Assembly (NCBI GenBank): GCA_019638695.1
Contig: JAHBTG010000023.1
Span: 1-36,762, forward strand
Source of the DNA: Bacteroidota bacterium
GTDB taxonomy: Bacteria > Bacteroidota > Bacteroidia > J057 > JAJTIE01
Length of the DNA stretch: 36,762 nucleotides
Direction: 5' to 3'
How positions within the stretch are numbered: the stretch's first letter is position 1; each line of letters starts with the position of its first letter. This document shows, one piece after another, positions 17,222-36,400 of the stretch. Both the position numbers and the translations under genes were made by a program. The notes under the pieces are model-generated. The model ran no database searches and had not been told where the DNA came from. It saw nothing but the letters and a program-made list of their open reading frames with translations.

Positions 17222-20200
17222 CTAACGGCGGGCCTCTTTGACCAACCGCAGGCTGACCACCTCGGTACCCTGTTGTAACACCAGGGTATAGGTGCCTGCA
17301 GCCAGTCCATCCAGGTTAAGGCGCCAGAGACCGGCGCGGGTATCGGGCCGCAATTGCTCCGTGCGCACTTCCTGCCCCAGGGTATTGAAGAAACGCAGGG
17401 TGGCGGTTTCTTCCAGGGGCAACCTGTAGGCAACGGAGACCTCTCCCTGTGCAGGGTTGGGGAAAAGGCGCGCCTGCAGGTGGGCCGATTGCGGGAGCAT
17501 AGCCTCCGCTACATTGCTCAGGGTAGTATTGCCATTGAAATCCACCTGGCGCAGGCGGTAGTAATAGCGCACACCGGGCAATACCTGGCGGTCATCCCAC
17601 TGGTAAGCACTGGCTGTAGCAGGGGTGCCCAGTCCGTCTACCCAGGTGAGATCCTCAAAGGAAGCGCCTGTAGTGCTGCGCTGCAGCCAGTAACCCGCAT
17701 TGTCTGTCTCGGCACGGCTGGTCCAGTTCAGGCGAATGTGCGCCTGCTCAGGGGTAGCATTTAGCCATAGCGCTTCTACCGGCAACAATACCGGCACAAA
17801 AGCGGTAGCCTTCTCAGAGAAAGAGGTCATGCCGTCACGGTAACTGAGCAGCGGATCACCTGTTGACGGGAAGTTGGAGGGTCCACAAGTGCCCTGCAAA
17901 GCCCAGGGAGCTGCATCGCGCGTGACGATGGTCCACTGGCCGCCGTCCGTCAGGTTGGTATAGCTGCCCCAGGCATGCTCCTGCACCAGGTTATAGGTGC
18001 CTGCCACACCGGCACCTTCGGGCACGGTAGTCCACAAACCGCTATTGAGCATCTCCTGGTAAGTAGCCAAGGGCGTACAGTCGGGTCCCAGTGGCAAACC
18101 ACCGGCAGAAGGATCGCCGTCCACATACGCCACACGAAGGGCAGTATGCGTAAACAGCGCGCCGGCATTGGCATAGGTATGCGTCTGGGGCATATAGTAC
18201 CGCAGATCGCCGGGACGGCGCACGCCTGTAGGATATACATAGCTGCCCAGCTGGCCCATGGCCCGCACAATGGTGGCAGGCGTACTTCCGCTTTCATAGA
18301 ACACATGCTGCTGGGCATTGGCGCCGGTAATCGCAGCCGGAGCCGGATTAAGTATACGCACCTCGTTGCCGGTGAAGATGCTGCCCTGGGTAAAGGTGAG
18401 GGTACCGGCAGCGCTTACCTGCACATCCGTATCAAAGTGTACATAGCCGTCTGCCGCATCGGTATTGATGAGCAGCAGGTCAAAAGGATTGGCAGCAGGA
18501 TCAGTAACCGACAGCAGCCCGACACCACTCTGGGCACGCAGTTCTACCTGGCGGGTGCCGCCGGTTGCGGTCTCCAGCGTACCCTGGAGCACCAGCGTAT
18601 CGCAGATGACCAAGCGGGCGCCGGCATGTGCAAACCGGAGATTACTGGCGCCCGATAGCGTGAGATGTTTAGCCAAGGCATCATAATTGCCAATGACCGG
18701 GGTACCATTGGTCACGGCTACCACATGGGTACAGTTGGGCACGCAGCCCTGGTCCCAGTTGGCCGGGTCATCCCAATCCCCCACGCCGCCTGTCCAGGTA
18801 AAGACGGTACCCGGAACAGGCGCGCCGATGGTAATGGTAACGGTATTGCTGATGACGGGTGTATTGCACGCCCCGCTCACTACTGTGCGGCGGTATTCAT
18901 ATACCCCGGCTGCGGTTAACAACGGCGGGTCATAGCTTTGGGTGGAAACGCCCAGGGAGGACCAGCCGCCACCGTCAATATTCACCTCCCAGTCATAGAC
19001 ATACACGCCTTCACCTCCCATAGGAGTGGTACCGGCAAAGAGTTCGGGATCGCCCGTACCACAGAAGCCGGTAACCGCAGGCGGCGTAATCGTATTATTG
19101 ACCAGCTCGGGTTGAATGATAATGGTAACTGCCGGGGAGATGCTGGAACCGCAGGCAGCCGTCACCACCCGCCGGTAGAGATGCGAGCCTAATACGGTCA
19201 GTACGGGCGGATCATAGGTATCTCCCGTGGCACTCGGGATATTCATCCATCCTCCGGCATTCACGTTATTTTGCCATTGATAGGTGTATCCCCCACCCCC
19301 GCCAGCCAGCACGGCAGATGCTGTGATGACCGCCGGGTCACCCGATATACAGAACTCCCGCACGGCAGGTGTCTGCAGGGTGTTGCCGCTAATGGGCGTA
19401 CCTGCCTGCAATACAATGGTCACAATATTGCTGGTATCCGCGGCACAAGTGGCCCCCAGTGTCACACGGCGGGTGTACTCATAAGTACCCGGCACCGTCA
19501 GCAGCGGCGGCGTATAGTTCTGCCCGTTATTAGTACCGGTGGCGGCGGCCCATGCGCCCCCATTGAATCGTTGCAACCAGGTATAAGTGGGTCCGCCGGT
19601 GCCTCCGGTGGGAACGGTTCCCAGAATACTCTCGGGCTGGCCGGTAGCGCAAAACTCCAGGGCCGAGGGTGGCGTAACGGTATTATTGGCAAGGGCCGGC
19701 TGCACCGTAAAGGTGGTGATATTACCGGCAAGGGCATCTCCGCAATTACCGGAGCTTACATACCTGCGGAAACGGTAACTGGCAGTGGCGCCTGCACCCA
19801 CATAGACCAATACTCCGGGCTGGTAATCTTCCACGTTTGAGCCCGGGATATCGTGCCATACATTCACACCATTGGTGTCTACCTGCCAGCGATAGGTATA
19901 GGTGCCATTGCCGCCGGTGGGCGTGCTGGCGTTAATGATAGCAGGCTGAGCACCTGAGCAAATGGTGGTATTGGTATTGGGCACCGTATTGGTAGCAAAT
20001 ACCGGGTTCCAGGTAAATACTATCGTATCGGAGGGCACAAAGTCGCAAGGCACGCCCGTGGCATTACTGCGCACCAGGCGGCGGTACCAGCGGGTGATGG
20101 TACCGGTTCCCGGCAGGGCAGGCGCCGCTTGGGAAGCCATGTTCTGCGCGGTCTGGGCAATATTAGTAAAGGTCACCCCATCTGTGCTCACCTGCCACTG

Positions 20201-23200
20201 GTAGCCATATACCCCGGTGCCACCGGTGGGCACTGCTGCATTCACTGCTCCGGTGGCAGTAGTCCCGCAGAAATCCTGGCCGGTAGTGGTTAATATATTG
20301 TTCTCAACAGGCGCACGGACGGTGATACTTACCGGAGCAGTAGCCAGATCCACGCAATGCTGGCTGCTGGTCAACCGGCGGAAACGATAGAGGGTCTGTG
20401 CCCCGCCCACCAGCGTCAGCAGAGGAGGATCGTAGGTCTGGCCGGTAGCCAGGGGGATATCATGCCACACATCCACGTTATTGGTATCCACCTGCCATTG
20501 ATAGGTATAAGAACCGGTACCGCCACCCAGCACACCGCTGTTATTGATCACGGCAGGGTCTCCGCTCTGGCAGAAATCCACGGCAGCAGGGGCCGCAAGG
20601 GTATTATTGGTCAGCGGAAGCGTAATGGTCAGGGCAACCTCATTATCACTTGGGGCATTCGTACAGGCTCCACTGGTCACCAGGCGGCGGAAGAGATAAG
20701 TACCGGGAATGGTCAGGGTGCCCAGGTCCAGATCCTGGGCGGTAAAACCCGTATTGCCGGAAGGAGGCACTGTGGCCGTTACATTTGTCCACGTCAGCAC
20801 AGTGGGTGCACCCACGGTACGCTGGTACTGCCACTGGTAGGTATAGGCACCCGTGCCGCCGCTGGGGACGCTGCCGATAATGACATCCGGGTTAGGATTG
20901 CTAGGGGTGGGACAGAAATCGACCACTGCGGGTGCAGTAATGGTGTTATCTGCGATCACCGGCAGCACAGTGATGGCATTGGCAGCCATAGCGGTGGCCG
21001 CTACACAGTTTCCTGCATAAGCTATCCTGCGGAAACGGTAAGTGCCGGGCGTGGAAATGTCTCCCAGGTCTATGGTAGCTGCAGTGACATTAGCCGTAGT
21101 TGCGGGCACAGTGGCAGTCACGGAATCCCAGGTAGTGCCACCGTCCGTACTGTATTCCCAGCTATAGGTAATAGCGCCTGTACCGCCGCTGGCAGCCGTG
21201 GACCCGCTGACTGCGGGATTGGCACTACCGCAGCCTGTGAGCGCGGTAAAGGTCACCGCACCCGGGTTGAGCACCAGGGTAATGTTCAGGGATATGACAT
21301 TGGAGGTATGGCTGCACCCGCTGGTTACTATCCGGCGAAACTCATAGGTGCCTGCCGTAGTGATGGTACCCAGGTCCAGATCACGGGCGGCAAAGCCTGT
21401 ATTCCCCGTAGGAGGGGCCGTAGCCGTCACATTTGCCCAGGTAGTTGTGGGAGCGGTCACGCGCTGCCACTGCCACTGATAGGTGTAGTTCACGCCATCT
21501 CCGCCAGTGGGATCGCTACCGGTGATCACCTCCGGGTTACCACACACATTGGTCACCGCAGGCGCGGTGATAATATTGTTACCCACATTGTCAGCGCCAA
21601 TGTTCAGGGTTACGGTATTGGTATACTCCGGTCCGCAGGGGCCGCGGGTCACCCGGCGGCGGAACAGGTAAGTGCCGGGAGTAGTGAGCACACCCAAATC
21701 CAGGTTCTGCGCCGCGAAATTGACATGGTTCACCGAAGTGGCCGGAGCAGTAGCCGCGACATCATTCCAGCTCACCCCGTTGTTCGTACTATACTCCCAT
21801 TGATAGATATAATTCTCTCCGCCAGGCACGGGGGTGCGCTGGCCCAGGGTGGCCGCAGAAGAGGTATAGGCGGGGATATTGGCAGTTACACAATACGTAA
21901 GCTGTGCCAGGTTATTGAGGGTTCCGGGATTAATAGTCTGCCGGGTAAAGAACAGTACGGGAGTTGAGTACTGGGTACCGCAAGCCGTGACCACTCCCCG
22001 GCGAAACTCATGGTACTGGGTAGCACCTGCGGCGGCAATCACATCCGGGTCATAGTCCTGCCCATTGGCACCGCTGATGAGTGTCCATGCCCCTGAAAGC
22101 GGACTGCCTGTGCCCGTCCGGTATTCCCAGATATAAGTAAAAGGATCTACAATAGCAGGCGCCGAACCGGTGATGGCGGCAGGGTCGCCGCTGTCGCAGA
22201 AGTCTACCACAGCCGGGGCTGTGATCGTGTTATCGGGAATGGTTCCGCTAATAGTGATCGCCACTTCGTTGCTGAAGTCATTGACGCAGGCACCCAGGCT
22301 CACCCGGCGGCGGAACAGGTAGTTACCGGCCACATTGATGCGGCCCAGGTCCAGGTTTTGCGCAGTAAACCCGGCATTGCCATTGGTGGGGTTGGTTACG
22401 GGAGAGTTGGCTGCCACACTATTCCAGATGGTGCCCCCATCCGTGCTCCATTGCCACAGGTAAGCGGGCGCGCCGTTACCACCCACGGGCACTAAACCTT
22501 CTATCAGATCCACATCGCCGGGAGCGCAGTAGGTAGTGGTGGCCGGCGCGGTAATGACATTATCCTGGATAGGACGGCGCACACGGTAAACGCCCGTAGT
22601 GGCAATGGTGCCGAAAGTACAGTTACCAGACCGCACCACCCTGCGGAAAGCAAACAGGGAATCAGAATCCAGCGAAGCCACCAGGAGATCCGGGTCATAA
22701 GTGGTGCCAATGGCGCCGGGAATATCTACCCATGTGCCGCCATTGACCTGCACCTGCCACTGGTAAAGGTTGACACCCATACCGCCTGTGGGCACCGTAG
22801 CGCTGGTAATAAGGGCAGGGTCTACCTGCTGGCAGTAGTCGGCAGCCGCAGGCGCCGTAATGGTATTGGTACCTGCCATAGCAGGCGTCCATGACACGCG
22901 GATAGGCGCTGAGTACACATAGTCACAAGGCACGCCCGTAGCATTGCTGCGCACCCCGCGGCGGTAGTAGCGCACCACTTCCGTAGCTGCCGGAATCGCA
23001 GGAGCAGCCTGGCTGGGCAGGTTCTGGGCAGTAGCGCCAACTACATTGGTATAGCTGAGGCCCCCATCCGTACTCACCTGCCACTGATAACCGTAAACAC
23101 CCGTGCCCCCCGTAGGAACCGAACCACTGATGACGCCGGTAGCCACGGCACCGCAGATATTGAGGTCTGCAGTCGTCACCAGGTTATTGTCAACGGGGAT

Positions 23201-26200
23201 GCGTACCGTGAAGGAGATGATATTGGAGGTATTCTCGCAGTTCCCGCTACTGGTGATGCGGCGATAACGGTAAGTGGTCTGCACATTATTTACCAGGTTG
23301 AGCACCGGCGGGTCATAACTGGCCGCCATGGCACCGGGAATATCATACCACACATTAGTGCTATTGGTATCTACCTGCCATATATACGTATACACACCGC
23401 TGCCGCCGGTCTGCACGTTGCCCGCAATGTTCAGGGCATCGCCAGATTCGCAGATCTCCACGGTAGCCGGAGCTGTGATCGTATTGGCGGAAAGTACCGG
23501 GTTCCAGGTGAATATGACCGTATCCGAGGGGGTAAAATCGCAGGGCACGCCCGTGGCGTTGCTGCGCACCATACGCCGGTACCACCGTGTGACGGTACCA
23601 GACCCCGGCAGGGCGGGAGCGGCCACATTGGTCATGTTCTGGCCGGTCTGTGCAAAATTGGTAAAGGTCACCCCGTCCGTACTCACCTGCCACTGGTAGC
23701 TATAGACGCCGGTGCCGCCGGTGGGTATGCTGCCGTTGATCACGCCCGTACCACCGGTGCCGCAGATATCGGTCACTCCGGCAGGCACTAGTGTATTGCC
23801 GGCAACAGGTGTGCGCACGGTATAGGTAACGATATTGGTGGCGATATCGCTGCAATGCCCGCTGCTGGTCAGCCGGCGGAAGCGATAGAGGGTCTGCGCA
23901 CCGGCCACCAGGTCCAGTACCGGGGGATCGTAGGTCTGTGCATTGGCACCGGGAATATCCTGCCAAATGTCGACATTGTTGGTATCCACCTGCCACTGGT
24001 AAGTATAGGCGCCGTTCCCACCGCTTAATACACCGGTATTGGGAATGGTAGCGGGATCGCCTCCGGAGCAGAAATCAGCCGCTGCCACAGCGGGCTGTGT
24101 AATGGCATTATTGACCAGTGGCGCCGTGATCTCCAGGGTAACTTCATTACTGGCATTATTGGCGCATACCCCGCTGGTCACCAGGCGGCGGAACAGATAA
24201 GTGCCGGCAATAGTGATATTTCCCAGGTCAAAGTCCCGCGCAGTGGCGCCGGTATTACCCGTGGGAGGCACGGTAGCAGATACGCTTGTCCATGTGAGAA
24301 CGGTGGGCGCACCCGCTGTACGCTGGTACTGCCACTGATAGGTATAGGCACCCGTACCGCCGGTAGGGTCATTGCCTACGATGGGGTCCGGATTGCCGCA
24401 AATGGTGGTGCTGGCCGGAGCCGTAATGGAATTCACCACCTGGGGCAGGAGGTTTACGGTAACCACCTGCGGGCTGATAACAGGTGTGGGACACAAAGCA
24501 GACCAGGCTACCCGGCGGAATTCGTAGACTACCGTGCCGGTGGTGGCATTGCTCAGGGCGGGGGGATCATAGGCCTGCGTGGTGGCCACATCCGTCCAGG
24601 CGCCGCCGTCTATGCGCTGCTGCCATTGATAGAAATAAGGCGCGCCCCCTCCATTGGTGGCCGCGGCTGCGGCCTGGTTGGGCGGATCACCTGCCGCGCA
24701 ATAGGTATACGTATTGGCAGTGATGTTATTGGTGACACCCGGCTGGATGGTAATGGTCACAATGGTACTGGTGCTATTGCACAATCCGCTGCTGACTATC
24801 CGGCGGAAGCGGTAAGTAGTGGTCACACCTCCGACCAGGGATAACAAGGGCGCATCATAGTCGCGGGCCACAGCGCCGGGAATGGCCGTGTACACAGTGG
24901 TGCTGTTAACAGACATTTCCCACTGATAGGTATAGCTGCCTTCCCCGCCGGTGGGCGTGCTGCCCACAATAAGGTCGGGATCTCCCTCCTGGCAGAAGTT
25001 TATCACGGCGGGCGCCGTCAGGGTATTGGTGCCGATGGCGGGGGTTACGGTGAGGGTAACCGTATCGCTGATGGAACTGGTGACGCCGGTACAAGCGCCG
25101 CTGGATACGATACGACGATACTGGTAGGTAGTCAATACCGCGGGATTAAGGGCCGGGGGATCATAATTGATAGTCGTGGCCACATTTGTGAAAGCGGCAC
25201 CATTGATACTCTGCTGCCACTGGTAGGTATAGGCACCGGTACCGCCGGTGGGCGTGCTGCCCAGGATAACGGTGAAATCTGCCGAGGCGCATAGACTGGT
25301 GGCAAACGGGGGGGTAATGGTATTGCCGGCAACAGGACTGAGCACGGTAATGGTCACTTCATTGCTGATGTGGTTCGTACACGGACCGGCACTTGCCAGC
25401 CGGCGGAACAGCCAGGTACCGGCAGTGGTCAGCGCCGGAGGGTCATAGGCCTGGCTCTGGGCACCGGGAATATCCGCCCAGCCGCCGCCATTGACATTCT
25501 GCTGCCACTGATAGGTAATGGGGGTAAGTGCGCCCTGCCCCACCGTGGGTACGCTACCCGCTATGTTGGCGGGATCACCGTTAAGGCATACGGTAGTGGC
25601 GGCAGGAGCCGTAATGGTATTGTTGGCAAACCCTACGTATACCGTGAGTGTGACTTCATTGCTGCTGACCTGCTGGCAAGTGCCGCTGGTCACCTGGCGC
25701 CGGAAGGTATAGGTGGTATTATTGCCGCCCACCACTCCCAGTACAGGCGGGTCATAATCGGCACTCTCTGCACCCGGGATATCTTCAAACGCACCTGCAT
25801 TAACCCGGTATTGCCACTGGTACAGATAATTCGTGCCATCTCCGCCGCTAAGTGTGGGAGGAGTAGTCCCTGTGAGGATATCGGGATCGCTGCCTGCGCA
25901 TAACTGAGAGACGGGACTGCTGATGGTATTATTGGCAATGAGATCAGCCGCTGTGACGGTGAATCCGATGGTATTGCTATAGCTGGGAGTACAATTCCCG
26001 CTCATTGCCACCCGGCGAAATTCCACGGTGCCTGTCACGGAAATGGCATCGCTGGAATAGTCTATGCCGCCACCTACAACAGTAAAGGGACCGCCGTTGT
26101 CGCTGCGTTCCCATTGATAGGTATACGTACCTGTGCCGCCGATAGGGGTAGAGCCCGTAAGGTCTACAGTACTGTGCTGACAAATGGTTGAAGGATTTGC

Positions 26201-28000
26201 GGTGGAAATGGAGTTACCGGTCACCGTGGGGTTTGTCGCCACCGTAACATCTGCTGTGCGGGTAGTTCCGCAAGCATCCTCCACCAGCACGGTATAGGTA
26301 TTCGAACCGATATTGACCCCATTTGAAGTTACTGAAGCACCATCGCAGGTAGGAGCGCAGGTCAGATCGGTGGTGGGACTCCAGCTATAGGTATAGGGTG
26401 CCACACCCCAGGTGGCAGTAGCCGTAAGCGATACGCTTTCGCCCTGACATATTTCCACAGTAGGCAGAGTCCCTACACTGGGGGCAATGACCAGCTCCAG
26501 GTTTCGGGCAAAGATGGTTACAGAGGCATCTCCGGGATTGGAGAAGAAACAACCGGCATCCGCACAGTTACCCCCACCGCAATCAGAAAAATTGCGGATA
26601 CCTGCATTAAAAGTCACTGTATAATCCGTGCACTGCGGCGTAACGCAATCTGCCAGCCAGGGTACGCCCTGGGGATCGTTCAGATCACTGGTGATACCGC
26701 AGGTACCCGGTCCTGTCCCGCCGCAAGCCCCTGCCGCAGAGCCGCAAGGGCCCACAAACTGGTAGCCGGTATTCCCTACCCAGCAGGGAAAGCTGGAGCC
26801 CGAAGGAATGCAAATACTAAAGATACATAATCCGCAGGCGCCTGTTGCACGGGAAGTACCGGCAACCCGCACATTTTCTACACGATAGCCCCCCGGCACA
26901 ACAATATTCAAATCAGGACCCAGGCAAGTGGTAAATGATTGGCTGCCATAGGTTGCAGGATTGGCTGCACTCACAGACACCTGGGGATCTATCAATACCG
27001 GGTAGCGCGTAGCATTTGCCCTCAGCAAATTGGTATGTACTGCCAGGCCCAGGTACCACCTGCCGTTCTCCTGGCGGATACGATAGCCATAATGTAGATC
27101 CGGCACCCCGGCGCTACGAAATTCGGCCACTAGTGCCTGGCGCTCTGCATCGGTCAAAGCAGCCGCTTCTCGCGCATCTGAGAGCGCAGGTTCATGAAAA
27201 CGGACAGCGGTCTCACCCTGCACATCCAGGGCCACCACTTCTCCGCACCAGATGTCATTGGCAGCCATCCGGCCCCGGCCCTGTTGCAGGCTCCACCCGG
27301 CAGGCAAACTCACTTCTTCTTCCCAGAGCATCCAGGAATCTGCATCTACATCCGGACGGGTATGCAGCAGGTAACTCGTTTTCAGGCTGCCTTTCTCAAA
27401 ATCCAGCCACCTGTCCATTCCCGGTAAAACCGAGGGAGACACTAATCTCTGGAGACCTTCCTGCACCGGGCCGGAGGCAAAAGCAAGCTGGCCTATGTGC
27501 TGGGGATTCCTACCTATTTGCCACACCTGTACCTGCTGGTTCCAGCGCACTTCCTGTCCCCCCGGCAGATTCACCCAACTGGCTCCCGTATACAAATCTG
27601 CATAAGCAGGAAGCAGCTGGCGCTCGGCGGCATACAAACGGCCCGTCAACAGACGGGGAGCAGGATCGGATATCCGCCAGTAGCCCTCCGCATCACGATA
27701 ATGCAATGGGCCATCCGATTGTTCGATAACCAATGCGCCCGGATCTTCCGGAATAAAATAATAGCGCACATTTTCCTTGCGCAGGTGAGGTTGCTCCACG
27801 CAGGTGAGGCAGCCCTGAGGTTTAATGGTACTCCCTGCATCCGGATGTTGGGCACTCAACCGGGCTTGTAATCCCTGCTGGTGAAATGATGGGCTTATTT
27901 CAGGTGCACGCTGCCCTAAGGATTGAGGATCACGCTGCGCATGCAACGCACTACACAAACTGAAAAGAACAAGAAGACCTGAACGTAGAATACATTTCAT
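17222..28000 (-). CDS. Giant T9SS-secreted Ig-like repeat protein (3592 aa), adhesin-like
   Basis: A single uninterrupted 3592-residue frame. It starts with a Sec signal (MKCILRSGLLVLFSLCSALHA). Residues ~50-335 are an unrecognised mixed region ending in RYPVLIDPQV. Residues ~345-490 are Cys- and Gly-rich. A PKD-like unit (~500-590, YTYSWSPTTDL) follows. Then come about 24 Ig-like repeats of ~103 residues (~592-3062), each with two cysteines. A beta-helix-type segment begins at FTWTGGVGDWDDPANW (~3062). Next are a fibronectin-III-like domain (~3407, IRLNWTSRAETDNAGYWLQR) and the T9SS type A sorting domain (~3507-3592, LFPNPAQGEVSV to GTYTLVL). It should cross the outer membrane by T9SS and be attached or released. 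Size and repeats suggest an adhesin or surface filament, analogous to but not homologous in detail with SprB. No enzyme domain was seen. Confidence 0.9.
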   Translation of the reverse strand: MKCILRSGLLVLFSLCSALHAQRDPQSLGQRAPEISPSFHQQGLQARLSAQHPDAGSTIKPQGCLTCVEQPHLRKENVRYYFIPEDPGALVIEQSDGPLHYRDAEGYWRISDPAPRLLTGRLYAAERQLLPAYADLYTGASWVNLPGGQEVRWNQQVQVWQIGRNPQHIGQLAFASGPVQEGLQRLVSPSVLPGMDRWLDFEKGSLKTSYLLHTRPDVDADSWMLWEEEVSLPAGWSLQQGRGRMAANDIWCGEVVALDVQGETAVRFHEPALSDAREAAALTDAERQALVAEFRSAGVPDLHYGYRIRQENGRWYLGLAVHTNLLRANATRYPVLIDPQVSVSAANPATYGSQSFTTCLGPDLNIVVPGGYRVENVRVAGTSRATGACGLCIFSICIPSGSSFPCWVGNTGYQFVGPCGSAAGACGGTGPGTCGITSDLNDPQGVPWLADCVTPQCTDYTVTFNAGIRNFSDCGGGNCADAGCFFSNPGDASVTIFARNLELVIAPSVGTLPTVEICQGESVSLTATATWGVAPYTYSWSPTTDLTCAPTCDGASVTSNGVNIGSNTYTVLVEDACGTTRTADVTVATNPTVTGNSISTANPSTICQHSTVDLTGSTPIGGTGTYTYQWERSDNGGPFTVVGGGIDYSSDAISVTGTVEFRRVAMSGNCTPSYSNTIGFTVTAADLIANNTISSPVSQLCAGSDPDILTGTTPPTLSGGDGTNYLYQWQYRVNAGAFEDIPGAESADYDPPVLGVVGGNNTTYTFRRQVTSGTCQQVSSNEVTLTVYVGFANNTITAPAATTVCLNGDPANIAGSVPTVGQGALTPITYQWQQNVNGGGWADIPGAQSQAYDPPALTTAGTWLFRRLASAGPCTNHISNEVTITVLSPVAGNTITPPFATSLCASADFTVILGSTPTGGTGAYTYQWQQSINGAAFTNVATTINYDPPALNPAVLTTYQYRRIVSSGACTGVTSSISDTVTLTVTPAIGTNTLTAPAVINFCQEGDPDLIVGSTPTGGEGSYTYQWEMSVNSTTVYTAIPGAVARDYDAPLLSLVGGVTTTYRFRRIVSSGLCNSTSTIVTITIQPGVTNNITANTYTYCAAGDPPNQAAAAATNGGGAPYFYQWQQRIDGGAWTDVATTQAYDPPALSNATTGTVVYEFRRVAWSALCPTPVISPQVVTVNLLPQVVNSITAPASTTICGNPDPIVGNDPTGGTGAYTYQWQYQRTAGAPTVLTWTSVSATVPPTGNTGATARDFDLGNITIAGTYLFRRLVTSGVCANNASNEVTLEITAPLVNNAITQPAVAAADFCSGGDPATIPNTGVLSGGNGAYTYQWQVDTNNVDIWQDIPGANAQTYDPPVLDLVAGAQTLYRFRRLTSSGHCSDIATNIVTYTVRTPVAGNTLVPAGVTDICGTGGTGVINGSIPTGGTGVYSYQWQVSTDGVTFTNFAQTGQNMTNVAAPALPGSGTVTRWYRRMVRSNATGVPCDFTPSDTVIFTWNPVLSANTITAPATVEICESGDALNIAGNVQTGGSGVYTYIWQVDTNSTNVWYDIPGAMAASYDPPVLNLVNNVQTTYRYRRITSSGNCENTSNIISFTVRIPVDNNLVTTADLNICGAVATGVISGSVPTGGTGVYGYQWQVSTDGGLSYTNVVGATAQNLPSQAAPAIPAATEVVRYYRRGVRSNATGVPCDYVYSAPIRVSWTPAMAGTNTITAPAAADYCQQVDPALITSATVPTGGMGVNLYQWQVQVNGGTWVDIPGAIGTTYDPDLLVASLDSDSLFAFRRVVRSGNCTFGTIATTGVYRVRRPIQDNVITAPATTTYCAPGDVDLIEGLVPVGGNGAPAYLWQWSTDGGTIWNSVAANSPVTNPTNGNAGFTAQNLDLGRINVAGNYLFRRRVSLGACVNDFSNEVAITISGTIPDNTITAPAVVDFCDSGDPAAITGSAPAIVDPFTYIWEYRTGTGSPLSGAWTLISGANGQDYDPDVIAAAGATQYHEFRRGVVTACGTQYSTPVLFFTRQTINPGTLNNLAQLTYCVTANIPAYTSSAATLGQRTPVPGGENYIYQWEYSTNNGVSWNDVAATAPATSVNHVNFAAQNLDLGVLTTPGTYLFRRRVTRGPCGPEYTNTVTLNIGADNVGNNIITAPAVTNVCGNPEVITGSDPTGGDGVNYTYQWQWQRVTAPTTTWANVTATAPPTGNTGFAARDLDLGTITTAGTYEFRRIVTSGCSHTSNVISLNITLVLNPGAVTFTALTGCGSANPAVSGSTAASGGTGAITYSWEYSTDGGTTWDSVTATVPATTANVTAATIDLGDISTPGTYRFRRIAYAGNCVAATAMAANAITVLPVIADNTITAPAVVDFCPTPSNPNPDVIIGSVPSGGTGAYTYQWQYQRTVGAPTVLTWTNVTATVPPSGNTGFTAQDLDLGTLTIPGTYLFRRLVTSGACTNAPSDNEVALTITLPLTNNTLAAPAAVDFCQSGDPAVINNSGVLGGGTGSYTYQWQVDTNNVDVWHDIPLATGQTYDPPLLTLVGGAQTLYRFRRLTSSQHCVDLATAPVSITVRAPVENNILTTTGQDFCGTTATGAVNAAVPTGGTGVYGYQWQVSTDGVTFTNIAQTAQNMASQAAPALPGTGTITRWYRRLVRSNATGVPCDFVPSDTIVFTWNPVFATNTVPNTNTTICSGAQPAIINASTPTGGNGTYTYRWQVDTNGVNVWHDIPGSNVEDYQPGVLVYVGAGATASYRFRRYVSSGNCGDALAGNITTFTVQPALANNTVTPPSALEFCATGQPESILGTVPTGGTGGPTYTWLQRFNGGAWAAATGTNNGQNYTPPLLTVPGTYEYTRRVTLGATCAADTSNIVTIVLQAGTPISGNTLQTPAVREFCISGDPAVITASAVLAGGGGGYTYQWQNNVNAGGWMNIPSATGDTYDPPVLTVLGSHLYRRVVTAACGSSISPAVTIIIQPELVNNTITPPAVTGFCGTGDPELFAGTTPMGGEGVYVYDWEVNIDGGGWSSLGVSTQSYDPPLLTAAGVYEYRRTVVSGACNTPVISNTVTITIGAPVPGTVFTWTGGVGDWDDPANWDQGCVPNCTHVVAVTNGTPVIGNYDALAKHLTLSGASNLRFAHAGARLVICDTLVLQGTLETATGGTRQVELRAQSGVGLLSVTDPAANPFDLLLINTDAADGYVHFDTDVQVSAAGTLTFTQGSIFTGNEVRILNPAPAAITGANAQQHVFYESGSTPATIVRAMGQLGSYVYPTGVRRPGDLRYYMPQTHTYANAGALFTHTALRVAYVDGDPSAGGLPLGPDCTPLATYQEMLNSGLWTTVPEGAGVAGTYNLVQEHAWGSYTNLTDGGQWTIVTRDAAPWALQGTCGPSNFPSTGDPLLSYRDGMTSFSEKATAFVPVLLPVEALWLNATPEQAHIRLNWTSRAETDNAGYWLQRSTTGASFEDLTWVDGLGTPATASAYQWDDRQVLPGVRYYYRLRQVDFNGNTTLSNVAEAMLPQSAHLQARLFPNPAQGEVSVAYRLPLEETATLRFFNTLGQEVRTEQLRPDTRAGLWRLNLDGLAAGTYTLVLQQGTEVVSLRLVKEARR
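19690..20960 (-). repeat. Four-unit block, copy 2 of a segmental duplication (units 18-21)
   Basis: Units 18-21 mirror units 7-10 in order and subtype, about 3.5 kb apart start to start. Similarity is strongest for units 18-20 and weaker for unit 21. The pattern indicates that a run of units was copied as a block, rather than each unit evolving independently. Confidence 0.8.
23190..24434 (-). repeat. Four-unit block, copy 1 of a segmental duplication (units 7-10)
   Basis: Units 7, 8, 9 and 10 of the giant protein lie here in that order. They match units 18-21 one for one: unit 7/18 share QYQRTxGAPTVLTWT, unit 8/19 share GAQTLYRFRRLTSS, unit 9/20 share YRRxVRSNATGVPCDF and FTWNPV, and unit 10/21 keep WQVDTN and DIPG. 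Boundaries are approximate. Confidence 0.8.
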
Positions 28001-28233: not shown

Positions 28234-29763
28234 CTAACAGGACAAAAGCCAGGGATCCATTTCACCGGACGGCACGGCCAGTTGTTTGCACATGATCTGA
28301 AAAACAAGACCGGGATCTTCACCTAGTGCAGGCAAACCCAGCACACGTTCCTGCACCAGGCCATAGGGTTGTACCTGGCGTTGCAGGCGCAGGATACGCT
28401 CATACCTGGCCGGGTGGTGCTGCACGGCAGCGCGGTCCAGCTTACGTCCCAGGCTATCCCAGAACCGTTGCTGCCGGGCCTGCTGCGCATGCACATGTTT
28501 CTCCAGTGTTACATCCGTCTGGCCTGCCAGGCGGGCAAGGGCCTCCATCAGGTGCCGGTGGCCGGCAGATAATTCCTGAAAAGCCGCCACATCCCGCAGT
28601 TGGGCTGCCTCCCGGGCGCGTATAATCTCCGGCGCTTGTAACACATAGTCCAAACCGACTTCCAGGGTATTCAGCATATCGGCCTCCGCCGACCGGAGCG
28701 CGAGGGCAGACAAACGAGGCAGGAGTACAGGATAGAAAATACCCAGTGCATCGAATACAGGTTTCAGCTGCAGCCAGTAGGCCAGCTCGGCATGCCCGCC
28801 GATATAAGCCAGATTGGGCAAAACAGACTCCTGGTATACAGGCCGCAGTGCAGCATTGGGACTAAACCGTTCGGGATGAGCGTCCAGCTCTGCCAGCAGT
28901 TGCGTATGCGTCCAGTGCAAAGGGGTATCCTGCGCCCAATAGTGCCCGTTGTCTGCGATCAAACGGCTGCGCCTGCCCTCCGTGAGGTAAAAAAGGTTCA
29001 GCGGCCGGTGTTTCAACTGCAGCGGGTAACCCAGTTCCTGCAAACGGATATTGGCCTGATCCATACCCTGAGCGACGATAGCTTCTGTAAGCTCCCGGCT
29101 GGCCACAGGAGCAAAGACTTCCTTCAGCAAACGGTCATCGGGGTCCAGTACCAGCATTCCATACGGACCCAGTACAGCCTGTAGCAAAGACTGAAAGGCG
29201 CGTCCCCAGGTGCGGTGCGCCTGGTAATGCTGCCAATATGCTTCGGGCAATAGGGGGAGCGATCTTATTTCTGTCACATGGCGCCCTACTGCGCCCGCGA
29301 TAGAAGCGCTGTAGCGCAAAGGCTGCTCCCAGCCGGTCCATATATGGTTAACTTCGTCGGCATCATGGTCTTCCCCGGCCATCCAGAAGACAGGTACAAA
29401 CCGGTGGCCGGGGTACACCTGTTGCAACCGCTGCACCAGCTGAAGGGTACTGAGCGCCTTGTACCAGGTATATAAAGGCCCGCCTGCCAGCCCGGCTTGC
29501 TGCCCGGTAGTAACTGTAAACGTCTGAGGGTTCAATAACGCGTCCAGGTTACCGGCGGCTCTCTCAGAAAGTCCCAGGGGTTGCAGCTGCCTGCGCAAAG
29601 CGGCTACGAGGCGAGATCTGTCCACCGGGTATCTCGCACGCGCAGCCATAACGGTCTCCCAGTCTGGATCCATAGCAGGAAAGGTATACAGCGGAGATAA
29701 TTCCGGTTTACCTGCCAGGTAGTCGGCCACCAGGGCAGGACGAGAAAGCGGGAGACAATCCAT
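28234..29763 (-). CDS. bshC: Putative cysteine ligase BshC (bacillithiol biosynthesis)
   Basis: A 509-residue cytoplasmic enzyme that joins cysteine to glucosaminyl-malate (GlcN-Mal) in the last step of bacillithiol synthesis. The N-terminal Rossmann-like core has the diagnostic TVTTGQQAGLAGGPLYTWYK (residues ~84-103) and FVPVFWMAGEDHDADEVNHI. The middle carries NLAYIGGHAELAYWLQLK, matching the family's 'IaGPGElaYwaqL' region. A long coiled-coil stretch follows (around 380-440), and the C-terminus holds GLVQERVLG before a short final strand. Length is slightly below the usual 520-540. It lies 76 nt after the GWxTD-like gene, likely in one operon with rimO. The bshA and bshB genes are not in this window. 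Confidence 0.92.
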   Translation of the reverse strand: MDCLPLSRPALVADYLAGKPELSPLYTFPAMDPDWETVMAARARYPVDRSRLVAALRRQLQPLGLSERAAGNLDALLNPQTFTVTTGQQAGLAGGPLYTWYKALSTLQLVQRLQQVYPGHRFVPVFWMAGEDHDADEVNHIWTGWEQPLRYSASIAGAVGRHVTEIRSLPLLPEAYWQHYQAHRTWGRAFQSLLQAVLGPYGMLVLDPDDRLLKEVFAPVASRELTEAIVAQGMDQANIRLQELGYPLQLKHRPLNLFYLTEGRRSRLIADNGHYWAQDTPLHWTHTQLLAELDAHPERFSPNAALRPVYQESVLPNLAYIGGHAELAYWLQLKPVFDALGIFYPVLLPRLSALALRSAEADMLNTLEVGLDYVLQAPEIIRAREAAQLRDVAAFQELSAGHRHLMEALARLAGQTDVTLEKHVHAQQARQQRFWDSLGRKLDRAAVQHHPARYERILRLQRQVQPYGLVQERVLGLPALGEDPGLVFQIMCKQLAVPSGEMDPWLLSC

Positions 29764-33499: not shown

Positions 33500-36400
33500 C
33501 TAGCGGCCAATGGGTTTTACGTCTTCCATCTTTTGCCCGGTACGCATAGGCTGAATCTCCTGCATAGTGGTGGGGCCACCCAGCGGCTTCAGCTCTGTTT
33601 TTTGCTTATGTTTATTACTGAACAAGCTCTTACTAGCAGGCTGACCATACAACTCAGGCGTAAAGTATTTGCCACGCATGGAAGCAGGTTTGTCAATCTC
33701 CACCTGACGCTTATGGGGATACTGCTGCAGATAAGGATCATTACGTTCGGCATATACTACCCAGCTGATCTTCTGCCCGGGGTTTCCGCCTGCAATCACA
33801 AACCGGTCTCCCTGCAGCTCTTCCTTGATATAAGCATTGGCCTGCTGGCCGATAGCCGTAAGCTGGTAAGTAAAGTTGATATTATTGGCAGTCACATAGT
33901 TTTTGAGCGTTACCACAGCCTCGCCACTGGCATCCAGGGTAATAGTGCCACGGTACACATTCAGCACCTCGTCACTTTCCAAAGCAAAGTGGCGCAGAAT
34001 TTTATTGGCAGGATCCTGCGGGTGGTCTATGACAAAAGGTTTAGTCCCGCTGGCACCCACATCCCCCTGTGCATAAGTACCGAATGTAAACAGCCCTCCT
34101 ATTGGAGCTTCACCCAATACGCCAACGCTGATCAAGGGATCTACAGCCTGGCCATAAACGCCCACAGGAATAAATACAAACCCTGAAGGTTGATCATTGA
34201 TACCCGCCACACCATAACCAGCATCAGTAAGGGCAACACCCCATACACCATTTACACCGGAGCCTACGACACCACAACCGTCTGTGGGGAAAGATCCCAG
34301 AATAGCAGTTGCATTATTACCAAAGCCCAGCAAACCGATACCAGATGTCGCATTAGTACCCACACCTTGTACCCCATAAGTGCTGCCTTCACCAGACACA
34401 CCGGCGCTACCGCCCAAGGCAACACTCAGGGCGCCATAGCCACGGATACCCGCGGTATTGCCACGGCCAATGACCCCGGCACCTGTAGCTGAAATGGGGA
34501 AACTCGTAAGGTTATTGCCCAGACCAATGATACCAATGCCATTAGCCACAGTACTGCCCTGGAAGAAGCCGCCGCGTAGCGTACCAAGACCCAGCACACC
34601 GGCACCCTCAGCAGGGCCCACCAATGCCGTATTATTTGCCTGGCCTACTACCCCAAACGAACTGGCAACGTTAACACCCAGACCATATATACCAAAACCG
34701 CCACTGGCAGAGCCGGCACCTACGACACCGTTCAATGTACCTTCGGCCACCACGCCACCGCCTGTGGTGAGGCTGGGCGTAAAGGTTGTAAGATTATTGC
34801 CCAAAGCGAAAACACCGATACCAGTAGTGGCAGTCGTACCGTTGGCTTGCAAACCATAGGTAGCGCCCGTACCGCTTACGCCCACGCTACCGCCGGCGAC
34901 TTGCGTGCGGGTACCCACACCTGTCATCCCCACTACCAGACCTTCGCCCCGCACACCGGAACCGCCACCACTGGTACGGCCCAGCACAGCGGCGGCATTG
35001 TTACCAGCCACTCCTGTGGGAGAAGTAATAGAAGCTTCAATGGCCACCACATTGGCCACATTATTGGGGTGACTGGCAAAGATGGCGCGGGTAGCGTCTA
35101 CGGCAGGTGCCGTCACATGCAATCTGTGCGTGGGCGCAGCCTGGCCAATACCCACGTTACCATTACCGGTAAAGGTGAGGTTAAAACCTGCCTGGGCTAC
35201 ATCCGTAGCACGCAAGAGCGTGCCGCCCAGCTCTACGGCGCCAGTACCACTGGCCGTAGTATTCAGGCCATTCTGGGCATTGACCGTAGAGGCCGCCCAG
35301 GTACCATCACCACGAAGGAAATTGTTCTGCTGACCTGCCAGCGGCTGGGGAACGATACCCGCAGTACCGTTGGCAGCGCCGGTGGCGCCTACCATCGCTG
35401 CAGCTGTAGGTGCAGCCGCCCAGGTGCCGTCACCGCGAAGGAAGTTGTTCTGCTGACCTGCCAGCGGCTGGGGAACGATACCCGCAGTACCGTTGGCAGC
35501 GCCGGTGGCGCCTACCATCGCTGCGGCTGTAGGTGCAGCGGCCCAGGTGCCGTCACCGCGAAGGAAGTTATTCTGCTGGCCTGCGGCGGGTACGGGAACG
35601 ATACCTGAAGTACCGGGCGCACCGGCAGAGGCGCCGGTCATCACAGGCGCGGTGATTGTACGGGCCGTTGTGCCATTATAAGTGGTGCCTGTGGTAAATG
35701 CAATGCCGGCACCGGCGGTAAGATCATTGGGCGTAGGAATAGCCGTGGGAGTCCAACTGGCTCCATTAAAGATAAGTATCTGTCCCAGTGTAGGGGCGGT
35801 AGCGGATACAGGGGTAGTTTGAATTCTACTGACAACCGTAGAACCGGGTGCACCGGTTACATCTCCGGCCAGGTTATCGACGCTGAAAGTAGTGCCCGTG
35901 AGCGTAAGACCCGTACCGGCGCTATAATTAGTCCCGGCATCTGCAGCGGGTTCCCACTGGCTCAGGGCGTTGTTCCATTTCAGTACCTGGCCGTTGGTAG
36001 GGGCGGTATTGACCACTGCGCGGCCTTGCAGCTGGTTGGCGTTCCAGAAGGCAGCAGTATTATTAATGGTAATGGAAGTACCTGTGCCCAGCACAGCCCC
36101 GGTACCATTGGTAACGGTTGCTATGGTGGCAGGGTTGGTCAGCGTAAGATTACCGGAAGTGGGTGCAGGCACGGCAGTGGGCTCCCAGCGGCTCAGGGCG
36201 TTGTTCCAGGTAAGCACCTGGCCATTGGCAGGCGCCGTATTGGCCATAGCACGGCCTTGCAAACGCTCCACTACGGTAGCGTTGGGTGCACCGGTCACAT
36301 CTCCGGCCAGGTTATTGACGCTAAACTGCCCTGCGGTAAGCGTAAGGCCGGTACCAGCCGTATAGGCAGTCCCGCCCGCCGTAAGGCTCACCCAGGTGGG

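Follow-up and report, generated by a model that had tools for sequence, protein, structure and literature searches.

A giant T9SS-exported protein of 24 Ig-like units in which conserved cysteines probably staple neighbouring domains into a surface stalk

Results

The window, that is, the whole 36,762-nucleotide stretch of Bacteroidota DNA analysed here, holds a single uninterrupted frame for a giant protein, P0001, which is read on the minus strand from position 28000 to position 17222 (Table 1). A giant T9SS frame with about 24 units of about 103 residues had already been described in a sequence-only reading of this DNA; the counts given there are correct, and we add the strand. From its N-terminus, P0001 consists of a Sec-type signal peptide that is clear by eye, an N-terminal domain, a Cys-rich domain, an Ig/PKD-like domain (D0), the array of repeat units, a post-array region, a domain found in many T9SS proteins of the same genome, and a type A sorting domain that scores 31.1 bits against TIGR04183 (cut-off 23) and 33.2 bits against PF18962. 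The apparent signal peptide and the sorting domain agree with the earlier proposal of Sec export followed by T9SS passage. The N-terminal domain recurs in one further protein, so that within one genome the same head is found on two anchors, type A in P0001 and type B in L117. The Cys-rich domain has no relatives among the fetched ORFs. No whole-protein orthologue of P0001 was found, the genus being represented by one genome and the family mate having single units only, and a single-protein scan with P0001 returned 9 loci with few true relatives among them.

Two other features of the window may be mentioned here. Upstream of P0001 lies the gene for BshC, a thiol-redox enzyme of bacillithiol synthesis, probably as a chance neighbour. 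Further along lies a frame for a 1,047-aa secreted-looking protein, with an N-terminal start like 'FGIGVPNPVEKLDVAG' and an internal tandem repeat, for which there was no family match.

Table 1. Features of P0001 and of the surrounding window
Feature	Position in window	Strand	Basis
Giant T9SS protein P0001, 3,592 aa, one uninterrupted frame	17222..28000	-	ORF reading
Sec signal peptide, about residues 1-21 (MKCILRSGLLVLFSLCSALHA, followed by Q)	27938..28000	-	judged by eye from sequence
N-terminal domain, residues 48-343, common to P0001 and L117	26972..27859	-	phmmer E 4e-26
Cys-rich domain, residues 346-505, 13 Cys (odd number)	26486..26965	-	read from sequence
Ig/PKD-like domain D0, residues 506-590	26231..26485	-	sequence reading
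Array of 24 RemA-type Ig-like units, residues 591-3061, C17/C88 invariant	18818..26230	-	unit alignment
Units 7-9, first copy of old three-unit duplication (70-72% aa identity)	23501..24448	-	sequence comparison
Units 18-20, second copy of the three-unit duplication of units 7-9	20009..20962	-	sequence comparison
Post-array region, residues 3062-3430, with C3086, C3090, C3133, C3308 and C3372	17711..18817	-	sequence reading
Domain ahead of sorting domain, residues 3431-3511	17468..17710	-	
T9SS type A sorting domain, residues 3512-3589	17234..17467	-	TIGR04183, PF18962
BshC gene	28234..29763		
Secreted-looking protein, 1,047 aa	33503..36643	-	
123-bp tandem repeat within the 1,047-aa protein, 87-92% matches	35292..35653		

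The 24 units are 94-116 residues long (mean 103) and have a mean pairwise identity of 37%. Together they hold 48 cysteines, exactly two per unit, which fall into two invariant alignment columns (C17 and C88); apart from these, invariance is seen at Y39, W41 and R81 alone. This two-cysteine regularity over 24 units is far above chance, and both the equivalent placing of the cysteines and the variability of most other positions, as first noticed from the sequence, are upheld by the alignment. The motifs proposed for the two sites are apt only loosely: the residue preceding the first cysteine ('FC') is F, I, V, Y, L or G, and of the forms suggested for the second ('SGxC or VPCD'), VPCD belongs to units 9, 11 and 20. 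The working alignment was made from mostly non-overlapping unit triplets; MAFFT loses register on overlapping ones. The spacing from C88 of one unit to C17 of the next is 27-33 residues (SD 1.4), compared to 63-85 residues (SD 5.4) from C17 to C88 within a unit, and in other arrays the corresponding distances are 24-31 at the boundary and 44-81 within the domain. Judged by these spacings, it is the geometry of the boundary, not the distance within the unit, that is kept constant.

Internal stops and assembly collapse had been named as what could undo the frame. There are no internal stops, and a collapse is unlikely because the units are not near-identical: the top internal DNA repeat of the gene, between units 7-9 and units 18-20, is 905 bp long and 73% identical. 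Tandem Repeats Finder reported no repeat inside the gene. Searches of Pfam and NCBIfam placed no named domain above cut-off on the units of P0001, and sub-threshold matches to Reelin, BPTI and BNR were rejected. While phmmer with the array alone gave no match among PDB sequences, a profile of the 24 units did find one strong match, chain 8gl6_D (labelled RemA; E 5e-38), which contains three units with both cysteines. Pfam contains no dedicated model for the RemA-type unit.

D0, which the sequence-only reading did not include, lies ahead of the 24 units and has its own equivalents of the two cysteines (C518 at the C17 position and C577 at the C88 position) along with an extra pair, C548/C552. 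Directly N-terminal to D0 and the array is the Cys-rich domain, with 13 cysteines in 160 residues, which may act as the acceptor of a staple from C577 of D0.

The AlphaFold (AF2) model of a single unit is an Ig domain (pLDDT 95.5) that matches CD22 domain 3 (Z 10.8, rmsd 2.1 over 88), in agreement with the Ig-like fold suggested earlier; the three-unit model (units 3-5) has a pLDDT of 91.7 and a pTM of 0.76. DSSP on the unit model places C17 in the AB turn, between bridge residue 15 (A') and strand B (from residue 20), and C88 in the FG hairpin, where it opens strand G after strand F (76-85) and a two-residue turn. In the Ig topology, the C-terminus shares one pole of the domain with the AB and EF loops, and the N-terminus shares the other with the BC and FG loops. 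This puts the two cysteines of a unit at opposite poles of the predicted fold, and C17 of unit n would face C88 of unit n+1. A classical Ig domain with a B-F disulfide was considered and rejected, since the canonical positions (about A26/G27 and R81) carry no cysteine in the units of P0001, the cysteines being at the AB turn and the FG hairpin instead.

Cysteine variation among the 24 units of P0001 is zero, and the pairing rule is transferred to it from relatives. Cysteine parity in the flanking regions of P0001 does not discriminate between pairing models. Our comparison set comprised 43 proteins with homologous or related Ig/PKD arrays from the same genome, family and order and from other Bacteroidota, six of the array patterns having been hand-corrected or extended after sequence reading. 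We scored each domain by two signs for the presence (+) or absence (-) of C17, given first, and of C88, given second. The first domain often has C17 without C88 and the last often has C88 without C17: there are 9 cases of 'C17 only' at the first position and 13 of 'C88 only' at the last, and six proteins (two at L076 and one each at L077, L080, L081 and L082) are ordered +-, ++, ..., (-+), the closing -+ applying to those in which the end of the array is visible. In L075 (genome G019) U(-,+) and B(+,-) domains alternate, and a bond within the domain is impossible there because no domain holds both cysteines. The chain of L084 is broken (+-, -+, +-, ++), with a domain lacking C17 followed by a domain lacking C88.

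Counted over adjacent domains, with p-values that overstate independence because arrays within one genome are partly related, C17(n) versus C88(n+1) gives [[239,2],[0,6]] (p=9e-11) with SprB-repeat proteins set apart, [[280,2],[5,6]] (p=1.5e-8) with these included and [[272,4],[6,5]] (p=3e-6) with zero hand corrections; C17(n) versus C88(n) of the same domain gives [[251,14],[18,4]] (p=0.04, SprB-repeat proteins set apart), and the reverse pairing, C88(n) versus C17(n+1), gives [[216,16],[10,5]] (p=0.005, OR 6.8). The two exceptions to the forward rule are homologous PKD pairs (L083 and L124) in which the second domain lacks C88 and an extra cysteine is present at the junction. Five further exceptions come from SprB-repeat proteins, some of which have three cysteines per repeat. 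In L112, L129 and L130 the SprB-type repeats often carry a third cysteine, in the EF loop or strand F, which breaks the simple two-cysteine rule; a different pairing scheme seems likely for such repeats. Domains from two Hymenobacter loci (L027 and L031) were left out of the evidence on account of a second cysteine inside strand F and Cys-rich neighbours. There, isolated Ig units lie between Cys-rich domains and have an extra cysteine before strand A, possibly another staple pattern. The second genome of the order (G021) encodes arrays of 25, 15 and 13 units, all of which keep C17 and C88. The 25-unit frame (L072, on the 8,327-bp contig C120) extends to the contig ends, and the within-unit spacing in the arrays of this genome is almost fixed (64), in contrast to P0001.

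The domain ahead of the sorting domain provides a further view of the C-terminal end of such chains. In a first set of 24 type B sorting proteins this domain nearly always has a lone C88, without C17. Where it does have C17, a cysteine is found inside the sorting domain itself (L116) or at position -9 (L119). We then classified by eye the Ig, PKD and SprB-like pre-sorting domains of a fresh set of 30 further loci, drawn from 149 sampled genomes of the class. A cysteine 8-11 residues ahead of the sorting motif was present in 8/8 domains with C17 and in 0/9 without it (p=4e-5, a generous value given that several of the loci are related). In L152 C17 and the junction cysteine are present and C88 is absent. 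The 8/8 versus 0/9 distribution of the junction cysteine, together with L152, argues that the partner of C17 lies downstream and not in its own domain.

Discussion

Taken together, these results make it likely that P0001 is a T9SS type A, adhesin-type surface stalk, possibly released at a later stage, in which C17 of each unit is stapled to C88 of the next. This reading builds on the computed frame, units, invariant cysteines, fold and sorting domain and on the co-occurrence rule in the relatives; from these we infer the disulfides, the rigidity and inextensibility of the chain, its adhesin role and the stage at which the bonds would close in the course of export. The bond would join C17, whose AB turn lies at the C-terminal pole of unit n, to C88, whose FG hairpin lies at the N-terminal pole of unit n+1, which would give 23 staples inside the array, one to D0 and one to the downstream region, where the cysteines of the post-array region are candidate partners for C17 of unit 24 (C2980). 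Such staples would create two interleaved covalent short-cuts along the chain, each with about 30 residues per two units. The covalent path would be 30 residues per unit if the bond were intra-domain, and about 103 residues per unit without a disulfide. Two folded Ig domains are about 80-90 Å long, and a fully stretched short-cut would measure about 105 Å, leaving a rod that could hardly be extended even with the Ig cores unfolded. Because the stretched short-cut barely exceeds two folded domains, the stalk would best be seen as a nearly inextensible rod on the order of 100 nm.

The sequence-only reading had proposed a disulfide in every domain, giving a rigid filament; such a bond, between C17 and C88 of the same domain, would stabilise each bead. 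The earlier emphasis on the cysteine pairs is supported, and with exactly two cysteines in 24/24 units P0001 alone fits either model, as do the long arrays, which mostly have both; we nevertheless regard the intra-domain bond as improbable. Judging from the predicted fold, with the two cysteines at opposite poles, and from the coupling of C17(n) to C88(n+1) in relatives, one disulfide inside each domain is probably wrong: half-cysteine domains are frequent and ordered by position (the first without C88, the last without C17), and L075 lacks any domain that could form such a bond. The nearly fixed distance of 27-33 residues might instead suggest that C88(n) is bonded to C17(n+1), only about 30 residues away. 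That pairing is highly improbable. Its co-occurrence in relatives is weak, with 26 exceptions versus 2 for the forward rule; a first domain without C88 would orphan C17 of the second domain, and a last domain without C17 would orphan C88 of the preceding one, while the Ig topology places both residues at the far ends of the G and A strands. There is also very little chance that the cysteines are not disulfide-bonded at all and serve as free thiols or bind metal. This would suit a genome in which an FrnE-like DSBA was detected but neither DsbB nor VKOR. It is hard to square, however, with cysteines that are strictly conserved in exported proteins and, where lost, are lost in pairs, and disulfides do form in envelope proteins of F. 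johnsoniae (PMC12635249).

As to function, a giant adhesin, one of the two options raised earlier, is supported, and we favour an adhesin-type surface stalk over a gliding filament, although this argument is weaker than that from the cysteines. Cargo with a type A domain travels via PorV and is then anchored at the surface or released. The mobile adhesin SprB, by contrast, relies on a type B domain together with SprF, and it is this domain that loads cargo onto the gliding machinery; when given the type A domain of RemA, SprB is exposed but immobile (PMC12618676). A SprB-like filament moved along the cell by the gliding track, the other option, is therefore unlikely for P0001, whose sorting domain is of type A. 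The kinship of its units with those of RemA/RemZ (8gl6_D) would speak for gliding, in which RemA takes part (PMC12618676), as would the presence of the translocon gene sprA in the genome. Against it stand, besides the sorting domain, the flanking genes, which are housekeeping (BshC, MiaB-type, metallo-hydrolase and ComEC-like); no PorP/SprF gene was present among the neighbouring genes tested. If P0001 is an adhesin-type stalk, its putative binding activity probably resides in the N-terminal 500 residues; neither Pfam nor NCBIfam gave a lectin domain match in P0001.

The genome encodes the T9SS translocon (sprA; SprA_N E 5e-137), and across its 2.9 Mb the sorting-domain matches number 74 for type A and 24 for type B. 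T9SS substrates exit SprA through an opening in the side of the pore, with PorV, and with the sorting domain leading (PMC10994853), and because of this mode of exit a folded chain of beads could pass end-on. Neither DsbB nor VKOR was detected in the genome, which is 96% complete, and its sole DSBA-family match resembles the cytosolic FrnE type. If the staples are real, the question raised is where dozens of them are closed relative to T9SS passage, and by which oxidant in a genome without detected DsbB or VKOR. They would explain why the cysteine pair is retained while almost all other positions of the repeat drift, and they would predict the mechanical behaviour of the stalk.

Whether the C17(n)-C88(n+1) rule extends across Bacteroidota, to very many T9SS-exported Ig, PKD and SprB-like arrays, is a closer call, which we judge slightly in favour of a shared rule. 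In that case, many surface adhesins, filaments and hooks of this phylum would be single-chain rods with neighbouring domains held by disulfides, and the arrays would amount to single-gene, covalently continuous and nearly inextensible polymers. The number and placement of staples could then be read from sequence, from free ends, breaks and junction cysteines. The rule would also offer a simple means to count domains and to locate array ends in sequences outside Pfam coverage.

Among the closest known systems is RemA/RemZ of Flavobacterium johnsoniae, which like P0001 has at least three units of the same family with both cysteines, as well as a type A sorting domain and the PorV route (PMC10994853, PMC12618676). 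It is 1,436 aa long and has 3 matching units versus 24 in P0001. Chain D of 8GL6 is labelled RemA, and in the paper on it the trapped substrate goes by the name RemZ (Fjoh_0803); the resolved part is the sorting domain alone, leaving the unit without a solved structure in that entry. P0001 thus has homologous repeat units in common with a RemA-like adhesin, but not a lectin domain match. P0001 adds a long protein to the known RemA-type T9SS adhesins, and the proposed pairing rule departs from the earlier assumption.

SprB is also a giant T9SS repeat protein. Similarity to the SprB repeat (PF13573) is weak and below cut-off, in 10/24 units of P0001, and many SprB-type repeats have a third cysteine where the units of P0001 have two. 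SprB has a type B sorting domain and an SprF anchor; P0001, with its type A domain and tested neighbours that are housekeeping rather than a linked PorP/SprF, was not assigned to the SprB-type gliding adhesins, which are defined by a type B (CHU_C) domain with such a gene. Ig_7 (PF19081), the CHU_C-associated Ig-like domain, has a unit layout similar to that of P0001, but matches weakly in only 3/24 units (best E 0.0075).

GhpA, the grappling-hook protein of Aureispira (PDB 9FLP, 9FLW, 9G8B, 9FLU and 9FLX, among others), is reportedly a T9SS substrate as well, and its assembly is heptameric. About 40 of its domains are related by sequence (listed with a PDB query that was a hand-made consensus of a B-type domain, used for that alone), and the stretch shown has cysteines at the C17 and C88 positions. 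Staples between C17(n) and C88(n+1) are described in none of the papers found in a partial coverage of the literature, and the GhpA structures might already show them. The best multi-domain match of our three-unit model is to three consecutive GhpA domains (9flw; Z 11.8, rmsd 4.7 over 246); Titin I67-I69 and others lie within 1 Z of it, and because Titin scores equally well, the match reflects a common bead-chain arrangement, not function. At about 83 aa, the GhpA domains belong to a shorter subtype than the units of P0001. The two proteins are alike in being giant chains of Ig domains with both cysteines; the heptameric hook and the role in predation are features of GhpA.
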